Origin: Mesaphorura yosii
Taxonomy: Eukaryota; Arthropoda; Collembola; Poduromorpha; Tullbergiidae
NCBI GenBank assembly: GCA_009869945.1
Contig: WIXG01000006.1
Coordinates: 558,001-622,000 of the forward strand
DNA: 64,000 nt
Reading direction: 5' to 3'
Part shown: positions 4,001-59,400 of the stretch, one piece after another
Layout: the number at the start of each line of letters is the position of its first letter
How positions within the stretch are numbered: position 1 is the first letter of the stretch
Position numbers and translations under genes: made by a program
The notes under the pieces: generated by a model
The model's input: only the letters and a program-made list of their open reading frames with translations
What the model was told of the DNA's origin: nothing
Database searches by the model: none

Positions 4001-7000
4001 GATAATATAAATGAGACCATAAAAATTAATGAAACGACCTCTAGTTAATCCAGCCTCCACCGTACGAGAAGCGATTTCGGTTAAAGTGCAAGCGGGAAAA
4101 CTTCAATTTTTGCTGAATTGTAGGAGGTCGTTGGCTTTGAAGTTCGATGACACACTGAAACGCTGGCCTCGGACTCGGACAAGTGTGCGGTCCTTTCAGA
4201 GTAATTAATCTGTACCGACTAAAATGATAAAAGGTTTTCTTGACTTGTTGTCTTTGCCTCCTCAGCAGTTTAATTACGTATCAATGCGAGAGTGGAAGCG
4301 AACGGAGAAGAGTTGAACAGTTTGTTTACATTTCTGAATAGAGAAATGATTGTGCGCGTGTGTGTTCGCCAGTTAACGTGATAGGTTTGGAAATCAGGTT
4401 TGACAAGAGGAAAGAAGACATTCCCTGAAAAAGTAAACACTGCAGAAAAGCGACAGACCAAAGAGAAATAATGAAAATCTTGATGTATCAAGTATTCTCT
4501 TCCACATGCGAGCACATGCCGGCCCACTCGCACTTCTCCCAGCCGCGCTGCTTTTGAACCAAAATTCGTCCAGATTGCTTCGGTTCGCGGCACGAGTTCC
4601 TGCGTGCGAGTGAGGACATAAATTGGAAAACTATACACGAGAATCTATTATCGCAACTCCACTTTGTGCTGCTGTCCCCAATAACCGAATGGAAGCGAGT
4701 GCTGCTGCCACCACACTTGACACAATATCGTGCTGATGGTGCTTGTGATGTTGGCGTTGGAAGTTGGCGTGTCGTTATTAGAAAGGTAGCATCTGTATTA
4801 CAAATCATAACTTTCTCCCACCGATCATCGGTGCCACTTGCACCAACTCAGGAGCCACGTAAGGAGCATGAACGACGACGACAGTGGTCCGTGATCTGAG
4901 GCCCACGTCCATTAACGCGCCGGAATGAAGAGACTACAGACGCCTGTCCGTTTGCCCCCATAATGTTTGATCACAAAGTGTGGCTATTAAAAGTTGTGAA
5001 ATAAAGCCAAACACATGCACAAATGCGCGTTTCCTTTCGCGTGCAATCGTCTTCATCTCGAAGTATCGCATGGCATGCAGCAGCAGCAGAAAAAGATGTC
5101 TAGTTTTACGATTGTTTGCGACTTTTTCTTTGTGTTCCGAGAAGGAGAAGCGCGTGCAGCGTTCTTGTGCTTAATGTTGGCTGGCGTACGACGATCTTTG
5201 GGTCGGATCATCTTTCTTGCTCTCATCTCATCTCTTTATAAGGCCGACTCCCTTCAGAAACATTTTAACAACATTAACTTTGCAGAAGAAAGAGAAGACG
5301 ACAGCTAGACCTGGATCAGGATCAACATCAGCAACAGCAGCAGCAGTGAAGTGGAGGCCAAGGCAGTGGAGGGAAAGTGAAGCCAATCTAATAAATAGAC
5401 CAAACAGAGAATGTGCACAATATGCCCCAGCACAAAAATATCGTACATGAGAATAAACTTTTGCTCCTCTTCCGCGACTCGGCTCGTACTTGTTCATTTT
5501 TTATACTTAACTTTTGACTCATTTGAACATTTTTCTTTCTTTCATGTGCACAACGCGATGATGACGAAGTGGCTTCTGAAATGCGCGCTCGCCTCCTCCT
5601 TGGCTTCGTTCGCCGTTTCTTTTGTCTCCGGCTGTTATTAAACGGACAGAAAGCGTTGTCTTCTCGTTTTTCTCATTCAAGTTGTTTTGTTTTGTTGACT
5701 CGCGCGAGCAGACGGGGGAAAGTAGGTAAACTGTCACACTACAGTCATCTAATAAAGTAGGTTCCTTTTCTTCGCATTCTTCCGTCACTTTTTCACAAAG
5801 GGAGAAATTGAGCAAGGCATGAAATTGATCACTTCATCTCACCTTACATCCTTTCTTTTCGAGAATCTGGATTGGAAATTTGTGTCATAGTATCAAAATG
5901 GTCTCATCCTTTCGACCTGCTTGCCGAATATTGCGGAGTTTAAAGCGGCCGAGTTCATATCGTGATCATCCAAGTCCTGTCCGAAACTTGGGTCTTGATA
6001 AGCAAAGCTATGTAAGAGCAATAGGGCAAAACCGTTATTGAGTACGCAGAAACTGTATGACGAAGATTACTTGTGGGTCATCAGCGAATGAGGAAATAGT
6101 TCTGCGTTAATAAATGAAGAGAAGTAGTGGCGTGGCGAGTCAAGAACGTATTTATTCATTCAATTTAATATTACGCCCATAAAAATGCGGAGAATGGGGC
6201 AATGTGGAAAGAAATCTTGTACGGCTTTACTCGCTAAGCCTCGCTTCATCCCGTACAATATGTTTATTTAGTATTTATCGTGCTCACAAGTTAAATATGT
6301 ACGAGGCAAACAAAACGACCGAGTTGCGCCTACTCACTTTACTTTCTCCGGAGTAAAGTCCGCATTACGCTCTTGACGCGGCCTGTACAGCAAATTTACC
6401 GAGAGAACGTAAGTATCAGTTGTTAAACCACAACAGCAGATCGTCGTTTCAAAATCTTTTCATGCATATTATGCTGTAATAACAATAATAATAATTCTGC
6501 CAATATACACTAAAGCCTGCCCCACTGAGACTTCTGCCTTCAGTCTCACAACTTTCTCTGGTTCTCGGAAGTCTCGCGCAGTGCAAAATAAAAACATCCG
6601 AACTGAAAGTGGAGACGCAGGAATTATGATACTTCTTTTTCCGACGTAGCGTCCGAAATCTGTGCACAGCGAGGCTCAAATTTATTGAGGAATGATGCGG
6701 AAGGCTAGAGAAGCAGCTCGCACAAGTGGAATTTGAAAGCCTGGAGTCAGAGCGGACGATTTCTTTATAGACTGGAAGAAAGAGTGAGCGAAAGTCAAAA
6801 GTTCTGATGCTTTACTATTTGCGATATTGCTGAAATACTTGTTACAGTAATAAAGTAGGGCTATAATATTACATGTACAAAGTGTCTCCCATTCGCCCTC
6901 GCAGCCAGCTGAGCTAAGTCGAGCTGGCTGCTGCGGACACGGAAGCATGTTAACCAACTTTTACATTTTAGTGTATTCTGAGCCAGCCAGCCGAGGTTGT

Positions 7001-17097: not shown

Positions 17098-20000
17098 CTG
17101 CGAATAAAGAGGCAAGGACAAGTATTTGAATAAATAGACAATAACAATATCGCTTAGATTTATACCATAATATTTTATTGCAATTCATAAATCAACCTGG
17201 CAATAACCACGCGTGAGTGGGTTTTTGCTGTGTTTCACAAAAGTGTATATACCACTCGGATCAAAATAAAATTGGAGAAAGTCTGTTGCAATGCTTCCGA
17301 TGTCAACTTCCAAATATTTGAAAAATGTAGCCGAAGACCCAGGAGGTTTAATTTATCCTATCTGGAACAAGCTTTTCTTCAAGTTCAACAAAACAGAAGG
17401 ATATTCATTGTCTACACGGCAGACGCGGTTGAGAATGAAAAATTGCAATCCTTTGACCCTGATCCCGATCCGCACTATTTATCTTGCATCATGCATGCAC
17501 GTGGAATTCATTGAAAGCCTACTTTTTTCAACGTAGCACTCTTCTTGGCGTGGCAGCAAAATTCGCATATTGCTACAACGAGGGCGAGCACGAGTCCAGC
17601 AAAGAGCACCACAAAGACACCGCCAATATTGTCCACTCCGAGAGGTGACGCCTTGGAGTCTTTCTTGTCGTCTCGATTGCACACGTCTCCAGTGTTTTTC
17701 CACCATTTATTATACAGCAATTGAATCATGCCTTTCTCCTGGAGCTCGAGAATTGCTAAGGACAGCTTGTCACGCCACGGCGAGCCTGCAAAATGAAAAG
17801 AGAAATTAGTTGCCGAAATCTGAGTTGAGAAAAATAGTTGCAACTTGAGTCGCTGTTCCTGTTCTGGAAATGTCATACTTTCGTTAAGTTCACAAGCAAA
17901 TTAGTGGTGTGGCACAGACAGAATTATCATCAATTTTCACCGGAGACATGAAGCAGAGGAAAGGTAATCAAAAGAGAGAAATGGGACGGAGAGCGCAGAC
18001 TTGGCGAAAGACGCGTGGAAGAAACTGTGCTGGAGAGATTAATGAGTTGTAAATACTGAGGCGAGAGACTCGCATAGAAAGTTTGCCATCGCGCCACAAT
18101 TCGGAGACTGACTTTGCTGAAAAAGCTTTTGCCTAAAGGCACATCTTTTGACTTTATTTTTTGAGAGCTGAAATCGCATTAAGTAAATTAGTGGAGGTGG
18201 AGGAGATATTTCAGATTTTAACCTAGCCATTCAGATTCAAAGCACTGCGTCCCGTACCTTTAGGCATTGCTATTCCGTATCCTTTAGAATCCAGCAGTCC
18301 GCCGATCTGTGTGAGATTGCAGTCTCTTTGCACGACGTAGTCCAGCATCGGCGACTCTATGAGGAATGCGTAGTTTCCTTGCAGCACTCTTTTGATTCCC
18401 TGTTCGTACGTCTGGACAAACACTTCTGGACGCGACTCCATGTACCTCCACATCTTCTTGTACGTCTCGCTGCTGGAATTCTGAAACAGAAAGAAATATT
18501 TTGTATTTTGAGCAGTCTTTCTCGTCTACAGCTTCTGGAATAAGGCAGATTTCTAATTTGATTTTCTAATTTAAATACAAATTGCAATTAATGACTGCAT
18601 GCAAGCGAATATCAAAAACATTTTCCGAAGTTAAACACAAAGTGCACTGGCATCAGCGGCCAAGTGCAGTAATCGCGCTACTAGCGGGTGGGTGCATGGA
18701 TAAGTTTATTGTGCACTTCCACCAGAGATTTAATCTACATATAATTTGAAAAGTACTTTAGCAACTGAATCATTCTATTCTGAAACTGTCGCCGTTGCAG
18801 TTCCTCCTCTTCCGCCGCCGCTTCGCTCTACTCATGCCTGCTTTTTTCTCTTTTCGCCTCAGAAACTGTCTCATCTGGGCACAGGTTCAACTTTATTTGC
18901 CTGGAAAAAGGCCAAAAGTATAATCAAATTAAATCATTCCTCTTTCTTTTAGTTCCTCGTCTTTATTGTTGTTGAGACAGGGTGGAGAGAGCCCGTTGAC
19001 GGGGAGCCGCAGTGGAGACGGCGGCGGACGACGGGCTTTCGCTTGATTCCTCTTTTATGATAATCAATATAGAAATATTGCAGTGCAAATTGTTTATTGT
19101 AGTCTCATGAACTCCCGCACAATAGTCTGCAGACTCCGACCGCGCGTCTGCCAGAGAAAGGTTACTTGAGCATTCAGTGCATGCTCTCGATTAATAGGCC
19201 AGCCACTTTCTCTTCTTTGTTTTCTTTGAGTTAATGGTTCAGGCGAACCAGTTAATAATAAAACAACAGCAAGACTAATGATTTAAAATGCCTCGAGAAA
19301 TAATCGCGGAAGGCAGCACGAAGCAGACAGACAGAAGCTGCTGTCTGAGCAAGGGCGCAGCTCATTATAACAGTTGCTTTCAAATATGCACGGGACTTTA
19401 CCCGAAAGAAGTCCATGGTGGATCCACTGTCGAGAGTTCCGTATGAAATTTCCGACTGGTCTGCAAGGTCTTCTGCCGACTCGATCGGCGTGCTCTTCCT
19501 GTCGACTGCAAAACACAATCACAGCGTCATTCGTCGTACTTCTCGCATGCGGAACAGGTTTTGAAGTCTTAAGTACCTGTGAGGAAGGCCGCCAGATTAG
19601 CCGTGTACGTGGATACGATTATCAGTGTAAAGAACCACCAAATGCCTCCGACCAAGCGAGTGGAAGTTGTCTGCAATAAAGAACGGGTTTACAAGACCCA
19701 CACAACAACAGCGAATAAGCTTTTATTGTGCTGTAAAATGGCGTGGATAATAGAAATTTTATGTTGTCGGTTTCCTTCTCCAGAAATAAAGCGGTCGTGT
19801 GCACATATGATGTCATTTTTAAGTCTTTATAAGATTTAGTATTCCACTTGCTTGGGCAGCGTAGAGAGTAATTCAGCAAACGAGCCAAGAAACAGCGACT
19901 TGACTCGAGAGTCCAGACGACTGCCAAAAGTGCACCCATAAATACGAGACTATACCTTCGGATTAAGTCCGGATCCTTGGCGGAGGAGCGTGCCAGTAAT

Positions 20001-23000
20001 AAACCAGACCGAGTTTGGAAATGAGAATTGATTCTCCAGCACTCCTTCGGAACCAACGCACGGAGGTGGGGCCAACCACTCGTTTGGCGTGAAACGGGCC
20101 ACCACAAAAAGTGTGAAACAAACCGTCACGTACGCACCTGAAATAGTTGGACAATTCCCAGTATTAAGCAGGAAGCCTTAAAGAAAGCAACTCAACAACT
20201 TTCATTCGGCGATAAGTCAGGAAAATCACTTCGATCCACTTCGATTCTCAACTTACAAGAATTCGGGCACAAAAGTTGACCGACGAAGATCCGGAAGGAA
20301 ATACTTTGCCGGGAAAAGCAAACTATTACATAACTACACTAAACCTCTCTCCAAAACACAACACAATACCTCAAATGCAAATCTCAGTGTTCACGAAGTT
20401 TGTGGAAAAATTTTGAGGAACTTTCTTTCGTAAACTTAGATCATCCTAAGATCGTTTGGTTTGTCATGTGGCTCCATGAAACCCAGTCATCAAGCATTGC
20501 GTAAATGAGTGTGCCAGTTGCAGGCACCGTTCGTCAATAAATATTTGAGTTATACAAGGAAAAAAGATTATGGTCGTGTTCATGCAAGTAAATTTCGTAC
20601 GATGTGAAAAGCACTTTTCAATAAGGGCATCCTTGTATTGCGATACCAATAGATAACGTGTCCGCCCAGATTAAATATTTAGACCGAAAGGATTTAAATG
20701 ACACGTTGCTTTCGGCTAGAAATCACATTAGCAATCGCATTCGAGTGCTCGCAGAGGAAAACTTAAATGGATGCAGGCGAGAGCAGATTAAACTTTGCAC
20801 TCACTTTCCAAACTTGTGCATACAATGCAAAACTTGAAACAATAACAACTCGCGTTCCCCACAACTAATTCGGTTAATCTGAATATGTATGTAACTGTAA
20901 ACTGGGGACAGGAACCGCGAAATCTGGCTGGCTCGCACTCAACTACGGGCAGTAGGTGGAAGTAATCTGGTCACACAATAGCCAAGTATTGATCCCTTAA
21001 TTAATTTCTGTGTCGCTCCAACAAGCGTATCGTGACTCTCGTGACCAAGTCGCCTGACGAGAATTGAGGTTGGCAATGGAGCTGTCGTGTTCTTACTTAC
21101 ATGCAACATATCCCCATATTTCAATCGAGAGTGGGTTGAGGAAGCTGAAAAGTCTTGCAGGTGGTTTCTTGGGAAGCTGTAACGAGAAGAAACAAGATGA
21201 ATGGACAAGAGCCCATGCAGTGCACAATCTAGGTGAAAAGGTCATAAAAACTAATGACGGAGAAATAAGAAGTCAAATAATGCACTGCCGATGCAGTGTG
21301 AGCGCTACAAGAGGGACTACTGAACAGAAACAAAAGCGATTCAAGTTTTTGGCTGTCATCTGCGGAAAGTACCTTGAACAGAATTGAGATTCCCAAGTTG
21401 CGGAAAGGTTTTGTGAAATCAATGACTTTCTCCCTAAAATTTCGCCCGTTCATCGTTTTAGAACCAACGATTCGCAGCAAAACATGCTTTCATACTTTCA
21501 CCGGCAATGTCATCATGTGAAAAATATCACGTAATAACATGCGTTGCTCACAAAAGAGCAGATTTCGAGTTACTGGCGTTAGTCTCTTCTTTTCGTCTAA
21601 TCTCAATCACCAGAATCAAATCAAAACTCAAGGGACGCAAACAAAGAGTGACTATTTGAGATCATGAAAGTCTGGCGTCTGTGTCTACTCACTGTATTCG
21701 CTAATGAAGCAGAAAATGCTGGCAACAATAATATGGAAAGACATTTGATGGTCTATTAATTGTATAACATTGTCTCAGGCTCTGGCCTTCCGTTGCCTCG
21801 AAATTACGAGCCAATATTTCATTTCAATTTAAGTGGACCAAAGAAAAGCCATCAAGATCAACTGTTTTCTGCAGTATTTGCTGAGACTGTTGATGGATTG
21901 AGATTAGATGATAGAGACTGTGAGAGAAGGAAATAAAATGTCGTGAGTGTATAAGAAACGAAAGTTTGCGAATAAAAATTGTTGGTTCTAAATGTTATAT
22001 CCCTTGCAGAGTTAATCGTCATGGATCCAACTGCCAAGTCTGACTTCTGCAATAACAAAAAGAGAATGTGAGCCCGGAGAAGACAGCATGCATTTTTGGC
22101 ATCCGATCGAAAGGGCGTGTAGTATCAGCACGGAAATATATCTGGTGGACCATAATCATCAGTCTTGCATGGCTCGCGAGACAAACACGTCCTTCTTTGC
22201 CGGTGCAAGCTCACAAACTCAAATAAGATATTGTGTTTATGGACGGTATTCGGCTCGTACATATTTTCGTGCCTCTGTGCTGGCATCATTGTCAGTGCAA
22301 GCATTCGTCACTTGAGAGAAGAGACACGCACAATAAGAGAGAAAGAAAGCCAGCCACCAGGGAAAGGAAAATAAAAATTCCGACAAAGGAAAAGTGAAAG
22401 AACTTCGACGGCATGAATGAAATTTCGGTTATTGTGTAAACGTATAGTTTTCTTACTCCATGAATGAGCTCCTTTACAACTCCGTTCCATTCTTTCGTCA
22501 AAGGGTCTTCCACGCCGTATTTCCCATCTTCGACAGCTTCTATTGTGTACTGAAACCCAACCAAATTGGCCACGTCTTTGAGCAAATCTATGCAAAATCC
22601 CTCGTATCTCGCATTCCCTGTGAGGTTCGACTCGAGCTTTTTCATTACGTAGGGCTTCTCCTGCACAACACAACAGAGTATCATGAAAAATGTAATGAAC
22701 AACAACAGAAGGCCCAACATATCGAATTGAATTCGCCTTTCGCTCCGTACTCAATAATAATGTCTTGCAGTGCGCCAGATTTCTCAGTTACACTTCACTA
22801 ATCTTCTTCAAGGCAATCTCACCTCTTTTCGTTATATTTCCTGACAGCTATATGCCTACATGTCACTTCAAAAATACACTTTCTCGTTTCGTTGGCTTTA
22901 TTCCTTCATATTTCCCTTCACAATTTGCTGCCAACCAAAATTTTGAAACCAGAATTGCAACCCAACCTTAACCTCAGGAAGCCTTATTTTATTAAGAACA

Positions 23001-26000
23001 CGTCGACACATGACGAACGCGCCTACTCTGCTCGCTAAAAGCCCTCGCACGCATTTCACTTACGAGGACAGTCGTTACACGAAGTGTGATATTCACCACG
23101 TCACCACTGCTAAAGGCAAGATGGTCATGAACTACAAGTCGGCTTGAGCTGGACCACTGCCCCACAGGTTGGAGGAAATGGTTCTTTAATTTGAGGAGTG
23201 TCAGAGTGGGATCATTGCGATTTCCATCACGAAGCTGAATTTTCCCAGTGAGACCATCAAAGGAAACCTGCCAAGAACAAGAATTGATTTAAGTAGTGGC
23301 TGTAAGGGGATTTCCGTGCACTAAGCCACAGATACAAATTACAGTATGAATCGAGGGAGACACCACGCGTGAAGAGTGAGGTGTTTAAGACATGTAAGGA
23401 AAGCGGGGCTAGGAAATTAAAATGAAATATTTTGGTGTAAAGAGTGCAGAGTGAATGAAGCGAATTGTACGCAGGTAAAATGAATGGGAAGCGAGAAGAG
23501 CAGTGAAACATGGTTTCGAACGAGGAAGGAAGAAGGCGAGAAATGAAAGTAAAAAGTATGAGGACGGGATTACAGCGAGAAAACAATGTGAGCAAAGGAG
23601 ATTATTATTTCCTGAGGATTTCCAGAGTGCGAAACAGCAAGAGTAAAAGGAAAGCGGGGTACAAGCGAGGAGCTGCTGTGCTCGTGCTAAGCTTTGTAGC
23701 AAATGAGCGCTGATAAATGAGTCCAGGAGCACACAAGCATTGAGAGATGAGTTGGGCCCGAAAGTGAAATTGAAAGGCTGGCAAATGAAGGCGAGATGAG
23801 GAAGTGTAAATGTGGTTAGTTTGAAGCACAATTGAATGATGTGGGCAAAGAAAGGAACGTACACTGTTTATGTAGTTGAGTAGTGAAAGACCATCAGACC
23901 ATGATTGTTCCCTGTCACAAGACATATTTGCTGGGCGAATTTCATGACTTGAATCAAATTGCTTGAGTCCATGCGAGAAAGATAAAACGGCATCGTAGAT
24001 CAATGCCGCCTCACTCTGCAAGAGAAGAGAAACATTAGTTTTGTGGAATGTGGGACTCTCGCGATCCACAATCGCGGAGAAACAATAAAAATGTGGTGGA
24101 CATTACTTTCATCCTTACAAATTGTTGCGGTTCCATATTTTCTACGCGGAGAGGACTCTAATTTGCATATTCTGGCTCTGGCCATTTATATGCACTGCCA
24201 TGCATATAATTTACTTACATTGAAGACACCAGAAAAGAGCACTGCTCGGAAACTTTTGTGTCTCTTGTAAATAAACTCGACGAGAAAGTAAATGAGCTAA
24301 TATTAAGAGGAAAGTGTATCTTGCGTTTCTCTTCATTATCAAGGCACGTACATGTGTCACGACAAGACTCCAGAAAAGCTTTTCTCTTCCAGGCGTTGAT
24401 TCACACTCTATTATTCTCCACTGCACTGAGCAAGTGTGCACAAACTTTAAAACTATGCGGCTTTATACTCGGCTGGAATATAACTGGAAGCTTGCTCTAC
24501 AACTTTTCTCCTTTATATTTTTCCGCATTTATACACGATTTATGCCAGGCAACCACTTACGGCAACAATGTCGGAGGACAAGGAGAAAGTGAGACTCGGA
24601 GAAAGTTGGAGAAAGGCGAGAATCTTTAAGCTGACATTCCATGCAAATTCAATTCATCCCGAAAACAAACACCGCGACTCTTCCCTCGTGACAAAAATAT
24701 GCCCGGCTACGGGAAAAGATTTCAGCATTTGTCACCATTGTCTTCATACACTCATTCAGACAAAGATCTTCACAAAGCAGACAAAATCTCACAGATTTCA
24801 TCGTACCATAAATTCAGGACTTGGAGACAGTATGCTAAATTTTGTCCATATCCATTTCACAAAAGAAGGAAAACAAGAGGAGGAAGGTAGACAGGCACAA
24901 GCGAATTTAAATATATTATTACCCGGAAAACTTTAGAAGAGCTCTTCGGATGGGTAAATCTTTGCATATCTTCAAACACATGTAAATTTTCTGGTGTGTA
25001 CTTGATGAGACGATATGAGGTTATGTTCACGCTGTTGTACGCGAAATCTTCCAAGTCGTACATTTCTAAATCCTGCAAAACCAAATGTTTATTACTTGGA
25101 GTGTTATTCGAATTACTAATTACGACTGCCAGCGCTGGAGTGCGCAATGCATTAAATTGGGACACAAGCACTTTGTGACTGTACGCCGCTAGCGCCGCAT
25201 TTGTATGCACGCTTAAACAACTAATTGGTCTCAGAGGACTGCCAACCGCATTCCCGCTCATTGTAATAGCTTGATTAGACGGCGCTTTGATAGTGCACTC
25301 ATAAAAATATTTGTCTCATTTCCTTGGTTCTCTGCCAAATGAGTGCGCCGGTGGCTGAAGTGCACTAGAATTATTTTGTCCTTCTCAGGATCTCTGATCC
25401 TGGCCAGTACGTCGCGGCTGCTAGAATTAGCGGTTCTCTATTCGATACAAATTTTATGCTTCCACGTGTTTCGAGCCAGAAAATTTCTACTTCTAACAGG
25501 AAGTGGAACTTTCGATTTGGTACGAAAAATGGTATGTAACAAATTCTGGCCTGCGTGCAGTTGGTCACTGTGCTGTGCACTGCATTGAGGGAGTTGCAAG
25601 TCTGCAGATTCACCGCAGAAAGCACATTGTTGATTCTATCTTCTGTGAATCATAAATAATATCTATCACATTATTTCCTTCCTCTATCTCCTTTCCTTTG
25701 GAATCAGATTAGACTGCTTTTTCTTGGTGCATTCATACAGCCCTATCCTGTTGTATCTTTCTTTATCAAGACTGACACAAATGCTCCCAGCAGTATCCCT
25801 CTATTGCATTAGGCATTATATGATAAGTTTACGCATAACTTTCTCCTTTGAAAATATCATTGCCAGTCACGGCCAGGAACCTGGCTTCTCTCCTTCACGA
25901 CTCACGAAAGGAAAATCATGAAAACTTGCGTCGTGGCTACTTTCTTTTGAAATGTTTTCTTTCATGTCCTAACCATCTATGCATGCCGAAGTTCAGTTTT

Positions 26001-29000
26001 TGCGTTTTGTCAGGGCCTGACATTCATTTCATTAACTTTGTCTTGTCTCACATTCTTCGCAATTTCTTAATATTAACAAATACTGATTATTGCTTGGATT
26101 TCGCAAATTCGCAGGAATGACGAGCTTACCATTGTTGTGAAATGATAATGATACCGAGCATCGTTCATCTGCAATTGGAGTACCTGTGAGATGTCATTCA
26201 CTATATTAATTGAGCGTCTTAATAAGCTTGAGTAATTCAGAGGGTACTCACAGTACGAAACAGTAATGGCAAATGGTTTGTATCAACAATTATATGGAAA
26301 ATATTCCTTCTCTTGATTTCCTTCAATATTTCGCGCAAGGTACTTGGTGCCACTTGTCTCGGGAATATTTCGCCACGTCGGCTTCCGACACCTCCTTTGG
26401 GTACAAGGAATGGATCTTCTTTCTCTTTGCGAATCAAATCCTGCACTTGCAAGAGATCTGCAATGAAGTGTTCAAGAATAATTTAACGACCTTCAATAAC
26501 GTCTTTTAGATGAAGCTAATAAAGTAAATAGAAATGACGTAGTTTGGCAGTTTGGCTCTGCATCCTCAAAGTCAATTTCTTTATGTGGTTCTAGTTTAGA
26601 ATTTAGGTCATGTTAATCTACCAAGATTCATCGTTTGGACTTTATACGCTTCCTCAATTCTTCACACTGAACGCTGTCGAAACTCAGACTTCCCATAATT
26701 ATTAAAGTTTCCGGCTCATGAAGCGAAATGGCCGTAAGTTGTACAGGAAAACTTTCAGGTGTTGAAAGCACTTTAAGCTATTAGGTGCCTTTACTGCCAC
26801 TTTCGCCAGATAAACGAAATTAAAAACCATTTCATCGGCTCGAGTCATCATGAACTGGCAAGCACGAGTCAGATACTGGTCCCGAAACACAGCTAACGAA
26901 CGCGTTCTTAAATCAAAGTTGATTTCTAATAAAAATCTTCAGGTTCTTCCGGTCACTACTCTTTCACAGTAACTTAGAGGATATTTCATACGGAACATAA
27001 AAATATTGCTTCGGAATCCTTGATGAGATTAAGTTAGCCTTCCGCCTCGTACTTTATGACTCAACTACGAAATATGATAATGAAAACTGGAAGTTTTTTC
27101 AAGAGGTTTGGTTATTTGGGTTTCCTGTGCGGTCGCAAATCGGTGAAAGGTTATAAAACAAACATACAATGTGAAGTCTGAATTCGGTCTTCCTAAGTTC
27201 AGATTTTCTATATGTTGTTCAATTCTTCGTCCTCCTACTGCGTTAACCAACAGTGGACTGAATGACCTTACCGTCATATTCCTCATACAGAAGTGCCACT
27301 CGAGTCCAGTTGAAGAAATTGACGGCGTCCTTGAGTGCTTCGCCCAGGATCGTCTTCGATGGGGCGAGTTTTGTGGGAAAGGAAGCATGTGCATACGAAG
27401 ACTCTGAAGCTGGTTCGTGGGCTGATGAGGTGGGAAGAATGAGAGGCAAGTCAAGGGCGAAGGAGAGCGATTTCAAGTGGGATTCAAGTGACGAATCTAT
27501 CCCAGTGGCGAAGAGCGCTGAAATCCCAGCACTTATCAATTGACATCCTGACAATTTAATGAGAATGGAATTAGATTGCGGTTATAAATCTGGAAATGCA
27601 GGTGAGAATTAAATTACTCTCCATCTTTCCGTATGGTCACGCTGTGTGGTACGATTTTCATTTTCATATCCGCACACCTGCGGATACTTTGCGTAGTCGC
27701 AAACGGATCTCATCACATATAGAATTGAATCAAGCTAAGTGAAAGGCCCACTTTTAAGTAATAACAAGACTCCGGCGAATCTCCTCGACACATTCCAGCC
27801 ATCTTCAGATTGATAATCTGAATATTCAATAACCGGTTTATAGCCTGTAATTTGGTCGTGTCTTGCCAACTGAGAACCTTGAACGATTAGAGCAGGACTC
27901 AACCTCCTCTGCATTGCAACCGCCACTGCTTCTCGAAACGGGTGGCATTTTGTATGTAAATTAAAAGAGAAAACCGAAGAGCGAGGAAGAAACACAAGAA
28001 GATAAGATTTTTTAAAGTGGAGTCAAGGGAGAATGAATAAAATATAAAAAGACACGAGATGCACTTGGAAAGTCATCAGTTTCCTCAGATGTTGTCGTGT
28101 CCTGTTCATGTTCCTTCCCCAAGCAACGCAAGAGCAGGCGAACACAAGGCAAAAGACTAGCGCATAATGTGCAATATGACTCTCATGGGTTCATGAGTAA
28201 AATTGCCATTTTCTTGACTCAAAAAACTATTTGCACTCTCTTTAAGTAACTCGCCTGAGACTCGGCGTATTAAAACTCCTTTACGGGCTGTGTTATCGCG
28301 ACTCTTTTAAAGCTTAATGACAATTTTATTTCGCACAACTTCCGCGTACAAATGTGAAATTCCCGCCTTGATTCTTCTTCCAGATACGCTAACTAATTAG
28401 ACTACAATTTGTTTCAAACTTTAATCTCTGCGAGGCAACTTCCGTAGGAATGTTTATTGATTCGTAAAAATTAAGGACGCTCTTTCCGAATTTCTTTTCG
28501 GGAGGGAGAAACAAAAGAATTAGTTGAAGACGGCCTGACAGCCAGCCTTATTATGATTGTTACAGTAATTGTGCATTTCTCCTCGCAAGACATCGAAAAA
28601 TTCGTTCATTCTACAGTGGAACAAGACCACGCAAAAACATGCAATCGGGTTGAGAAATATGAAGAAGGAAGAGAACATGTTCTGTTAATTTGCTCCGCGA
28701 TGGAATATATAAATTGTAATGAAGCTGTTCTCGTTCTCGTGCTTCACTAGCTTGTACGGTACGAGTCTGGAAGACACTGGTTCCTACATGTGCGAGTTTT
28801 CGATGTATTCTCGTAACAATTGTTTGTAGACAGCTAGTTTTACAAGAACCACAGAATAAGGACGCAGTTCGATATAACGCTTCCTCCGCCCGCACATGTG
28901 AATCTTTATTTTTGGCTTTTTCCTTTGCTGTTGGCTGTCGACTGCCGACTTCACTTGTCTCCGTCTCATTTTCCCTACTTTCACTCTGTGAATAATGAAA

Positions 29001-45174: not shown

Positions 45175-47568
45175 ATGCTTGGTGCAGAATCTCAATTTAA
45201 CAACAGTAATCATGTTCGTAGTCATAATGTTTCGGGCAATGTTACTGCTCAACTCTCGTGTACAACGACCACTTTGATCAAATACAGAGTCAAGAACTTA
45301 GACAGTGTCAACAACATAGCAAATTTCGAGGGCGGCCAAGACGCGGAAGCGAAAACAGGACAGCAGCAGCCGCCGCCGCCGCCAAGAGACGGAAGCGGCG
45401 TGCTTCAGAATGGACTGGGTTCGTGCACGACGTCGTTGTGCGACTGCACCACCGCGAAGACCACGACCACGACTACATTCAACCTCAACAGCAACAACCC
45501 GCCTTCAGAGACGCCACAACATCGAAATATGCAGCAATCTACTGAGGGAGAGAAAATAACGCGACCGCCCTTCATTACGACGGTCACTCGCGGAAAGTTT
45601 TTGCCGTCAAAATTTGACTTGCTAGTCGAGAAAAGTCTCTTCACCTTCGCCAGTCGTCCGCGACCTGTGAACTTGATCAAGAAGCACTGCTGCTCGTCGA
45701 CCCCGTCTCCAGCGCCAACTTCGACGACTCCGTTCAGCAAAACCAGCCGATACTCTACACTGGGTCCTGCAAGCAGGAATGAATCCTCGATTCCTTCGCG
45801 AACTTCAACGATAACGCCGTAAATTGCATAATACATGTTGTCTAACTTTGAATTGGCGCTCATGAAATTGCGAACGCACAAACAGAAATGTTCACTCATT
45901 TCCGATTAATCATTCTTGGCCCTAAATTTATATTGTTCTACAAGAACGATTCGAGTTCCGCAAATTTTGAACCGAGGAGCTAGAATTATAGGTTTAGGCT
46001 TCTGGAAGGACAAAATTTGAACTAATCCCGTTTTCATTATTAGACCACGGGGCGCACACGATTACTACAATGTTATGTGGGATCCTCACGTCGTCAGAGG
46101 CACCACGGCAGCAACGACCAGAGTCAGCGAACAGACTGTAAGAAGATCGAGGATTGGTCTTTCTGCTTCAGGTTTACTTTTTTCTAATTGCTCTGAATTT
46201 CAGAAGGAAGTGAAGCCCACTGCGAATGAGACACAGTCACAGAACGATTCCAAGCTGCCGAAAGTTAAACGGTCAACCACAACACAGAAACCTGGCACGA
46301 GGTTCAGGTACAAACCGTTCTTAAACTCTCTGTCGCCACCATTCCCGCCGACTCCAGGGCGGCTCAGCACCATGATGCAGACGGAAAGATTTCTGGAGGA
46401 ACTTCCTACTGACGACAGAGTGCAAATTCACCAAGCAATACAGACTGAGCCAATTTACGCGAGCGCGACGGCAGGCAGCCAGGCCGAAGCACAAGTCCAA
46501 GTCAAGTACGGAGTTGACAACTCGACTCAGATTCTTCCCGGTGAATTGTTCAACTTTGACGATGAAGTGCAGCCGGTTTTGGAGTCATTGATCGGGAAAA
46601 TATTGGAGCAGGCAATGTTTGAGACCGTCGAGGAGGAAGAAATTGCTGCACTCCGCGAAGAGAAGAACCGATTTCAGCAGCAAAGGTGGCGAGAGGAGAA
46701 GGAGCTGCTCGAGCTCCGGAAGGAGCATGAAAGAATTAGTGCAGAAAAGGTAAGGGATCTCAAAATTGGACCCTAGTGCCTTCAAGCTAAGTTTTTGGCG
46801 AATGACCTTCATTTAGGAGCAATTGCGACGACGGCTTGAGGATGAACGCAGCAACCAGAGCCGTGCATCCTCCAATATGAGCAGCGAGTTCTTTAAGCGA
46901 GAGTCGATGGACTCTCTGCAAAGAGTTACTGGTGGGACAACAGTCTATACGACTTCGTACTTGCTGGAACTTCTTCCGTCCGTTCTCAATTCACTGCGCC
47001 AGGAAGGCTTCCTCAGCGACACCATTGATGAAGGTGAATACGATGGCCTCATTAGCATGCGACATGGTTGATTGATCGGATAAGAATACTGACAAGATGC
47101 CTCTGTTAGACACATTTTCCAGAACCACTTCAGTCCAACGTGGAGATTCCTGTTCTCCGCCAATCAGTAAAGAGGACGATGGCCGGGTCGAAGAAGAGGA
47201 ACGAATTCTTGATATTAATGCTACTAATGAGACTCAAGCAGAGATTAGTTACAAGGATGACGCGGAGGCAAGCCAGCCAGCGAATGACGTTCCTGATGAA
47301 CGTGAGTTGCAACCAAGTGCAAAATCGTAGCATTTTGTGTACTTGTGGCCTTATTTCAGGGGACGGACAAAAGTGGCAGAGGTCGTGCGACAGCCAGTCG
47401 ATGGAGAAGGAGCTGGAGGACTTGTCCGCGTCGTCGCCATTGTCCTGGAGTGTGGACTCGAGGACTCCACGCACGCAGGGGTCGGAGTTGTCCCGTGACA
47501 CGTCAACGACCACGACAGTTACGATGATTATTAATCAGCGTTCTTCAACCCTTGACGAGGAGCAATGA
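45175..47568 (+). CDS. rsph3: Radial spoke head protein 3 (six exons, about 633 aa)
   Basis: Exons 45175-45818, 46044-46137, 46204-46749, 46817-47033, 47110-47301 and 47360-47568; phases agree, and an in-frame stop at 45130-45132 precedes the first ATG. RSPH3 is the axial dimeric scaffold of axonemal radial spokes and an A-kinase anchor. Seen in order: a disordered N-terminal exon with FTFASRPRP; MWDPHVVRG (226-234), a near-invariant RSPH3 motif; TQT-type words MQTE, IQTE and TQI (305, 326, 355), which bind LC8 in Chlamydomonas RSP3; the PKA-anchoring helix EVQPVLESLIGKILEQAMFE (367-386); a coiled coil to about 450; and YLLELLPSVLNSLR. The usual segment after that motif, with F-L-P-W-L, is not found, so the C-terminus is divergent or an exon is missing. 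The N-terminal 210 residues are longer than usual and low in complexity. Confidence 0.92.
45361..45384 (+). repeat. CAG/CCG triplet run in rsph3 exon 1
   Basis: CAGCAGCAG followed by CCGCCGCCGCCGCC encodes a short glutamine-proline run in the disordered N-terminus. It is a typical unstable microsatellite in frame. Confidence 0.7.
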
Positions 47569-56400: not shown

Positions 56401-59400
56401 CTGCGCGACTGGAAGCTTGATGACTACGTCGATGAGAAGCTGACGACGCTGGAGAGAAAGAAGAAATCGACACCGGAGGAGCTGAACCAAACCGTTTGTG
56501 GGTCCTTCGGACCCACTCAGGTGGTTCAGGTGGACGTCACTGGCAGCGGCTTTGACCGCATGAAGTCAAACAGGCGATCACTCACGATACACACAAAGCG
56601 AATCAGAAGCAAGAAGAAGAGAAGAAATACGATTTGCGGAGCTATGCCAAACAAAGAGTATGCACTCATAGAATTCGACAAGCACGGGCATAATTGACAG
56701 AGTTTAATGCGTGCATTTGCTGGTTTTACGAAGGTGTGGAATTCAAACCAGCTTTTCGTCGGTGCTCGCCGCTTCGGACAATAAAAAGTACGGAATCGAC
56801 TCTGGTCACTGGAGTAGCTGCACGACTTCTGGTGTTGGCGGTGCGAGTTCGACCTCGGCACCCTCGCCCTGGGACCCAAATTCCATCACAACGTCGTCGG
56901 ATTTTCTGTATGACGACGAGGACCGCTCTCTCACACCACAATTGGAGAACTTCACTGTGAGTCCAACTCGACTTTTGCTCAAACCTTAAGCCTTGTCTCC
57001 TCTCAAGCCGATCTGCTGTTCATTTCGCCTTTGACTTGGCCTGGTCTTGTAAAAGGAAAATGACACTGATAAATTGTGCGTGAATGTTTTAAAGAACCCG
57101 TCGTAAAGAAAGCTTAAGAGTAAAATGCAACAGGAAATGATTTTATTGTACAATGCTCAAGTTCCTTTGTGCGGGATCCCTCTCTATGGTGCCATGGTCC
57201 AACACCCTTTGTTTGCTTAATGTGTGTACCCTTCTGCTTAATCCGCAGGATGGGCTCGTTTCGGACTCTGATTGTTCAGTGGATTCTGCGGGATTTTTCA
57301 CGTCATTCAGGAACGATTGCGGGTTTCCAAAATCCAAGAAGGCTGTGAAAGATAAAGAGGACTCGACAAATGCTCCGTCCACGCCAGCGACGGTGACTGA
57401 GAATGAGTACGAACTGTTCGGGAAGGGATCCACAAGTACGACAGCAAGTTCGTGTGGGACAGTCGTTCTTCGCAGAAAGCCGGACGGCGCAGAGACGTCA
57501 ACTGAACAACAAGAGAAGAAGGTAAAGGCCAGAAACTCTCTTCATTTAAGAATTGGAAGTATATTGCCTTTCAATCAGAGCACGGTCAGATGTGAAGACC
57601 TCCTCTGCGTCTACGTCGACTTGCCTTTGTGAACTTGTGAATTACAATTTGTCATGTATTCCATCTCTGTCCGCACTAAACACCATGCCCAATTTTGCTT
57701 ACAATTCAGGGAGACGATGTCGGATGGGAAGAGCGCGTGAAAAGGAAATCTCTCATTGAAATCGTCCCATCAATGGTCGTGGTGACACCGTCGCCATCTT
57801 GCTCACTGAACGGAGGAAGTCCTCCTCCACTGAAGGAGCCGGAGCACGCAGATATTCCTTACGCAGACGAGGACGATGGGAGCAGCGATGACAGACTCAC
57901 ACCGCGGATAATGGAAAGCGACAGCGAGTCGGGAACCCTGAGCGACAACGATGACCTCGAAAACAGAAGGCTCTTGGACTCAGCAACTCCACCCGCCGTC
58001 CCGCCTGACATTCCCCCACGCGAACCTCACCTCCTAATTACATCGGACGCTAGCAGCAGCAGCAGTTGTAGTAGTAACGCGACTGTCAGCGGCAGCGGAA
58101 GTGGCAGCAGCAGCAACAATGCAAAACAAGACGAACAAGAAAGGTCCCCGTGCGGCTTGCCAAAACCAGACGTTATTCCTGACGTGCAACAACTGCAAGT
58201 CATCCGTACCTCAACAACGCCTAAGCTGAAGTCCGGGACGGACTATGTGTCGCTGGACACCGTCCAGTTGGAATGCAGAGGGCAGCAGAATGGTAACAGC
58301 AGCAGCAGCAATGAAACTCTGGACGACATGGACGGCGAAGCAAAACCCAGCAACAGCAATTTTCACCAGCGACCAGGAGTTTCTGCCAGAATTCGAGGTG
58401 CCAAAGTAGTACTTGACCCGAATGGCGAAATAATATTCTCATCCGAAACTCTTAAACGAAAACGGCGCCAGAAGATTTCGTTCGATCCAGGTGCTTCTGT
58501 CAAACCAGCCGAGTACGACAGCAAAAGCAGCTACAATCGAGCACGAGAGTCCATCTACGACAGGCTCAGACCGGAGAAGGTGGACGACGAAATTTATGAG
58601 TGCATTGAGAAGATTCGACAGCATAATTTGAAAGAGAGCGAGGCCATCGAAAAGAAGTACGACTCGCTGGCACCACTAAACACCACAGTGGCGAATGGGT
58701 CGTCCCTAGATCACCAGGTTGCGGGTAACTCATCTCACCAGTCTTCTGCGCTGCCCTCGCCATCCATTAGCATGATCCTGGAGACCGATCTTGACAACTT
58801 ACCGCCAGTGATGCCGGAATTGGAGACGCTCCCGAAAATCAAAGACAGATTGAAACGCAACGAAAGCTACCGCATGGCGAACGAAGAGTTGGCGCTCCGT
58901 CCCGCCTTGTCCATCCATAATCGCCAGTTGAACGGCCTGAATGGACACAAGAGCACGCTAGCTAGTGCAGGCGCAAGCAGGAAGAGGGACATACCGGAAG
59001 AGGATCCGGTCTTCGTCCAGCAAATCCTGAGTCTGAGCAGCTCGACCAACTCTCTGAGTCGCAACTCACCAATTCCGAGTACGAACCACCACTCCCTATT
59101 TGGTCGTGCCAGTTCGAGTAATTCTAACCATAACGCTCATATTAGTAACAATAGCCTTGTTCTGGCGCCTTCGTCACCGTCTAAGTTTGCTCTTTCGCCT
59201 GACGACCGTCCATCTTTCTTGCGAAGAGGTAAATTATTCTACACTGATATTTGGTAACGTCATTGGACGAGCCGAATTGTCGTAAGACGTTTCCTGCTCG
59301 TTGAAGATTTCTCAGTTATTCTTTGTTTCCTTTTTCCACTGTACTGCATTCTCCAAATGAACGCGAAATGCCTTGCATTTCTGATGGTGTTGGGGTACTT

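Follow-up and report, generated by a model that had tools for sequence, protein, structure and literature searches.

Organization of the locus

The window, a stretch of 64,000 nucleotides from the collembolan Mesaphorura yosii (C6:558001-622000), belongs to an assembly of 93,006,257 bases in 1,127 contigs. A search of this assembly for COX1 gave no match, and its receptor repertoire reads as that of an invertebrate, probably an arthropod. It carries on its minus strand a gene for a glutamate receptor subunit, of which 11 exons, running from 24015 down to 17508, join into a single open frame of 540 residues that covers the last part of the ATD and all that follows it through the stop codon; the exon borders were chosen by eye and the ATD is modelled in part. 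All 11 acceptors are AG and nine of the ten internal donors are GT, and the joined exons contain S1, M1, the pore, M3, S2 and M4. Two further open frames lie on the plus strand: one of 251 residues at 46021-46776, the end of which resembles what we take to be radial spoke head protein 3, and one of 525 residues at 57680-59257 that is rich in Ser, Pro and Asn.

Reading along the minus strand, an ATD stretch is marked by a PF01094 match at 27276-27545 (31.4 bits, cut-off 25.4). The ATD continues in the exon at 23863-24015, which ends NYINS, and closes with the linker in the exon at 23064-23267, which ends ITLRVTTVL; both were placed by frame and borders. The S1 ligand-binding half occupies 22457-22660 (EKPYVMKK...ELIHG), an exon recognized by its AG/GT borders, its frame and PF10613, and the carboxylate-binding Arg of S1 lies in a short exon at 22003-22046, whose donor is GG and not GT. 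An exon at 21373-21433 separates the S1 and M1 exons. M1 starts at 21101-21176 and ends, together with the pore loop, in the exon at 19956-20137, which aligns to GluK2 without gaps. The M3 gate follows at 19577-19670, then the start of S2 with the Ser-Thr glutamate contact at 19402-19505, S2 with the amino-binding Glu at 18258-18480, and the end of S2, M4 and the stop codon at 17508-17785. Borders and frame define these last four exons, as they do the two between S1 and the pore exon.

The 406-residue stretch from S1 to M4 is recognized in Pfam as Lig_chan (154.4 bits, cut-off 30.8) and Lig_chan-Glu_bd (138.9 bits, cut-off 30), and the domain set of a kainate-type subunit is present, with PF00060 and PF10613 on the spliced protein and the PF01094 match upstream. 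The residues that contact glutamate, Arg in S1 and Ser-Thr and Glu in S2, are all found in the spliced protein. When the protein was compared with the PDB by phmmer, the best 18 of the 60 sequences shown were 16 kainate-named chains and two unnamed entries (‘Glutamate receptor’), with AMPA receptors next, at scores of 403 bits for kainate against 360 bits for AMPA. An unrooted FastTree of 11 partial sequences grouped the AMPA-like genes with GluA1 (0.977) and placed GluK2 apart from the invertebrate kainate-like genes, on their AMPA side (0.799). The gene thus appears nearer to kainate than to AMPA subunits, although the tree is less clear on this than phmmer.

The Q/R site and the +4 position

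How much calcium passes AMPA and kainate receptors depends for the most part on a single residue of the pore, which mammals set by RNA editing. In the window gene the codon for this residue is at 19980-19982, where the plus strand reads GCG and the minus strand accordingly CGC, within an intact pore exon (20137-19956) that has the acceptor ...tttcag and the donor gtatag. Alignment by phmmer to the GluK1 and GluK2 chains of the PDB needs no gap and pairs the R with the first glutamine in MQQGSELMPK, and since GluK2 is 56% identical over 310 columns, the placement of the Arg at the Q/R site is not in doubt. In rat GluK2 the Q/R site is reported as position 621 (PMC11599716). A chromosomal R therefore occupies the aligned position, in place of the genomic Q codon with an editable A that characterizes the Q/R-edited GluA2, GluK1 and GluK2. 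Because CGC has no adenosine, A-to-I editing can neither make this Arg nor revert it. The preliminary description of this DNA had proposed an Arg written in the DNA at the Q/R site of a kainate-type subunit, and the gapless GluK1/GluK2 alignment and the CGC codon bear this out; it had allowed that the Arg might align off the Q/R position, and in the alignment that was run it falls on the site.

When the assembly was searched with a 2,731-base probe covering the locus, the single match was the locus itself. The codon is read from a single assembly, so that an assembly or sequencing error might be considered; it is barely credible, however, as changing CAG or CAA into CGC needs two wrong bases and the codon at the +4 position differs too.

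Four residues past the Q/R site, the codon GGA at 19970-19968 (minus) encodes Gly, a feature that had been overlooked. The alignment has Glu at this position in GluK2 and Asp in GluA1. The acidic residue at +4 governs polyamine block.

The sister paralogue and the integrity of the gene

A profile search of the assembly with PF00060 gave 64 matches, of which 34 were translated; the remaining 30 include 28 inside open frames longer than 300 residues. Among 11 pore stretches in genes classed as AMPA- or kainate-type, the Q/R site is Q in eight (L025, two in L032, two in L028, L033, L030 and the standard pore of L031), R in two (the window gene and an alternative pore in L031) and G in one (the first pore exon of L032). 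This count leaves out, as NMDA- or IR-like, L027, L034, L035 and L040, L026 and L029, whose pores are split by exon borders, and L036-L039 and L041, the placement and class of all of these being judged by eye. By eye, two IR-like pores have a DNA-encoded Lys at the equivalent of the Q/R site, ALLKQGS at about 4221-4553 of L027 (C822) and ALMKQGS at about 2550-3083 of L035 (C20). Judged in the same way, the pore of L034 (TLVLRGSD) has Leu at the site with an adjoining Arg, that of L040 has Q at the site, and an NMDA1-like pore in L035 reads LLNSG.

The sister of the window gene in the FastTree of 11 partial sequences (support 0.951) is the gene on C116 (L025). The two are 66% identical over 386 columns and share GSMTI in S1, where GluA1 has APLTI, but C116 has CAG (Q) at the Q/R site and GAC (Asp) at +4.

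Comparison of the pair bears on whether the window gene is still maintained. The comparison covers 172 codons in seven pieces that were chosen for clear alignment, which biases them towards conserved parts of the genes. Of these codons, 40 differ at the first position, 19 at the second and 111 at the third, which makes second-position changes nearly six times rarer than third-position changes. This pattern suggests purifying selection. The main reservation about the window gene is the exon at 22046-22003, ending ...ATTAACTCTGCAAG, where the donor (window 22002-22003, minus) reads GG instead of GT, another point that the preliminary description did not mention. One intron may consequently not be removed normally, yet splicing to the following exon would leave the reading frame unbroken and yield the expected SAR-EKVIDF. 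A motif search of the window found no other S1b-like stretch. The gene could be losing its function, with the transcript broken at the GG donor, no second S1b-like stretch picked up in the window by the motif search, and the R and the Gly as relaxed changes. We consider this improbable, given that the other internal donors and all of the acceptors are regular, the frame is open to the stop codon, second-position changes are far rarer than third-position changes, and a single irregular base could reflect an error or allelic variation.

Alternative pore exons

Two relatives of the window gene appear to have additional pore exons. For the window gene itself, a tblastn search of the 64 kb window with five pore peptides found no second pore exon, returning 20135-19956 and two weak matches elsewhere (E 0.88 and 0.91). 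In the AMPA-like gene on C341, an extra block at L031:7192-7508 lies between the S1a exon (6891-6985) and the ordinary S1b and pore exons (L031:7643-7727 and L031:7807-8068, the latter reading LVQQGSDRTPR). The block starts after AG and ends before GTAAGC, its entry and exit phases equal those of the ordinary pair, and joining either set to its neighbours leaves an uninterrupted reading frame. It encodes EAHMAVAPLTIT...WFSIASIFRQETSIYPR, with CGC at the Q/R site, and its filter reads RQETS, with Glu where Gly is usual; on account of this unusual filter it may conduct poorly.

The extra block and the ordinary exons share 42% protein identity, and of 105 codons 47% differ at the first position, 33% at the second and 70% at the third. 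Such a pattern is not what neutral decay would be expected to leave, although constraint on the ordinary exons accounts for part of the signal. In a simulation that allowed substitutions only and started from the ordinary exons, 732, 281, 138, 69 and 41 of 5,000 copies were free of stops at 15, 25, 35, 45 and 55% difference, respectively. A genome search with the peptide of the extra block returned the block itself and 11 further matches at 36 to 61% identity.

The kainate-like gene on C69 has two pore options before one M3 exon, and again both products are in frame. One option, at L032:3421-3552, has Gly (GGG) at the site (MMGQGSDVLPK); the other, at L032:3951-4069 plus 4147-4165, has Gln (CAG) (LMQQGSDIAPR), with a GC donor at its second piece. 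Both sets look like candidate cassettes for the pore that would be used in a mutually exclusive way and bring different residues to the Q/R site. The extra exons may instead be remnants of duplication. Should they be cassettes, the animal might set its Q/R site through genome and splicing and not through editing, with a fixed R in the window gene, Q or R in C341 and G or Q in C69. We put this forward tentatively, as an idea slightly on the doubtful side of even. If true, the choice of exon could let cells adjust how much calcium enters, doing by splicing what the editing switch does in vertebrates.

Search for traces of RNA editing

Both Q to R and E/D to G are changes of the A-to-G type, and a relic of an editing hairpin was looked for in the window gene. 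The candidate was rejected: the pore exon with the downstream intron (window:19600-20140) folds with z = -0.48, 31 of 100 shuffles being at least as stable, and the corresponding stretch of C116 gives z = 0.00, with 53 of 100 shuffles at least as stable. With no hint of a special duplex, the proposal that the site was formerly edited and then hard-wired by mutation is left with the A-to-G type of the changes. Loss of ADAR as the cause of hard-wiring was likewise rejected, as ADAR-type adenosine deaminase matches occur at two places, C175:75742-76842 and C43:321451-322695, and indicate that RNA editing machinery is present in the animal.

Relation to known receptors

The edited forms of GluK1 and GluK2 have the same domains, the same site and the same Arg as the window gene. 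In GluK2, however, the R is reported to arise by editing of a Q codon (PMC10504484) and +4 is Glu, whereas here CGC stands in the DNA and +4 is Gly. A chromosomal R at the Q/R site is already known from teleost gria2 (GluA2), some fish genes of this type being reported to have, like the window gene, the Arg codon in the DNA (PMC4018279). The interpretation given in the preliminary description consequently needs revision in two respects: its statement that vertebrates obtain Arg at this site “only” from editing does not hold, and it overlooked the loss of the +4 acid, while the R, its encoding in the DNA and the kainate type of the subunit stand. Teleost gria2 is of the AMPA class, unlike the kainate-type window gene. 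It probably keeps Asp at +4, where the window gene has Gly. A third point of comparison is the placozoan receptor GluE1alphaA, which is also reported to have a natural residue other than Q at the site and an altered calcium and polyamine behaviour (PMC12226733); it belongs to the epsilon class, with Ser at the Q/R/N site and the +4 Asp kept, in contrast to the Arg and Gly of the window gene.

A kainate subunit that combines R with loss of the +4 acid was not found described in the literature searched, which includes few subscription papers and in which the slash of “Q/R” hampers searching, and the pore peptide was not found there as text. Among other sequence collections, searches for relatives of the window locus gave five stretches in viral_contigs and 73 in genome_contigs, none of them a relative. 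The pore pattern occurred at four loci in viral_contigs and 19 in genome_contigs, and tblastn of the window protein on these 23 gave no match at E 0.01. Plasmids gave no animal relative and one distant bacterial match (24.3% identity).

It is rather probable that the R and the +4 Gly are an old and ordinary feature, common to the whole arthropod orthologue group, which would be compatible with a working subunit. Insect kainate-2-like proteins probably have much of the window pore motif, possibly with R, and if they do share the R the trait is old and arthropod-wide. Residues other than Q are common at the site in other receptor classes: newly described groups include 84 proteins in which the +4 acid is present, and just one third of these are reported to have Q (PMC6307864). 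Against this, the literature searched gave no statement that R and +4 Gly occur throughout the arthropods.

Predicted channel behaviour

What the R most naturally suggests is a subunit that limits calcium in heteromers, as the preliminary description proposed. The window subunit would form tetramers together with subunits from the same genome that bear Q, for which the sister paralogue C116, with Q and Asp, would be the first candidate partner. The Arg would place a permanent positive charge where the pore is narrowest, and the absence of the +4 acid would weaken the cation site that holds polyamines, so that the expected channel would admit little calcium, show little inward rectification and conduct less. 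Assembly with Q subunits, delivery to the membrane and effects on permeation are here inferred by way of GluK2(R), GluA2(R) and the placozoan receptor.

These models do not all point the same way. In the placozoan receptor, the substitution S642R is reported to increase rectification and to raise the relative calcium permeability mildly, while inward calcium currents became very small and the mutant expressed poorly (PMC12226733), for which reason R alone is no guarantee of the expected behaviour. The +4 substitution D646A in the same receptor is reported there to have eliminated the voltage-dependent block by polyamines, with a slight drop in relative calcium permeability. Because D646A alone abolished block and S642R increased rectification, the polyamine resistance predicted for the window subunit is better argued from its +4 Gly than from its Arg. 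A 2025 review adds that GluA2-containing AMPA receptors are now shown to pass some calcium (PMC12551409).

The main rival to a working subunit is one that is nearly silent or serves in signalling only, with a tiny conductance or retention in the ER and either a dominant-negative effect or a role as metabotropic kainate receptor. GluK2(R) is described as not gating calcium, with less than 1% of the conductance of the Q form, partial ER retention, less traffic to the surface and a suggested metabotropic role (PMC10504484), and the poor expression of the placozoan R mutant agrees with such a subunit. The pore, the M3 gate and the ligand residues of the window gene are intact, however, and its codon positions are constrained; moreover, mossy-fibre kainate currents are reported to persist in wild-type mice, in which GluK2 is mostly edited (PMC10504484). 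We regard a near-silent subunit as unlikely, and lean slightly towards the window gene encoding a working R-type kainate subunit that would join Q subunits and lower calcium entry and polyamine block in heteromers.

If these readings are true, the R in the DNA, the lost +4 acid and the alternative pore exons would together indicate that the control of calcium entry that mammals exert by RNA editing is also attainable by gene duplication and splicing. The window gene and its relatives would then offer a natural test of the separate effects of the R and of the +4 residue.
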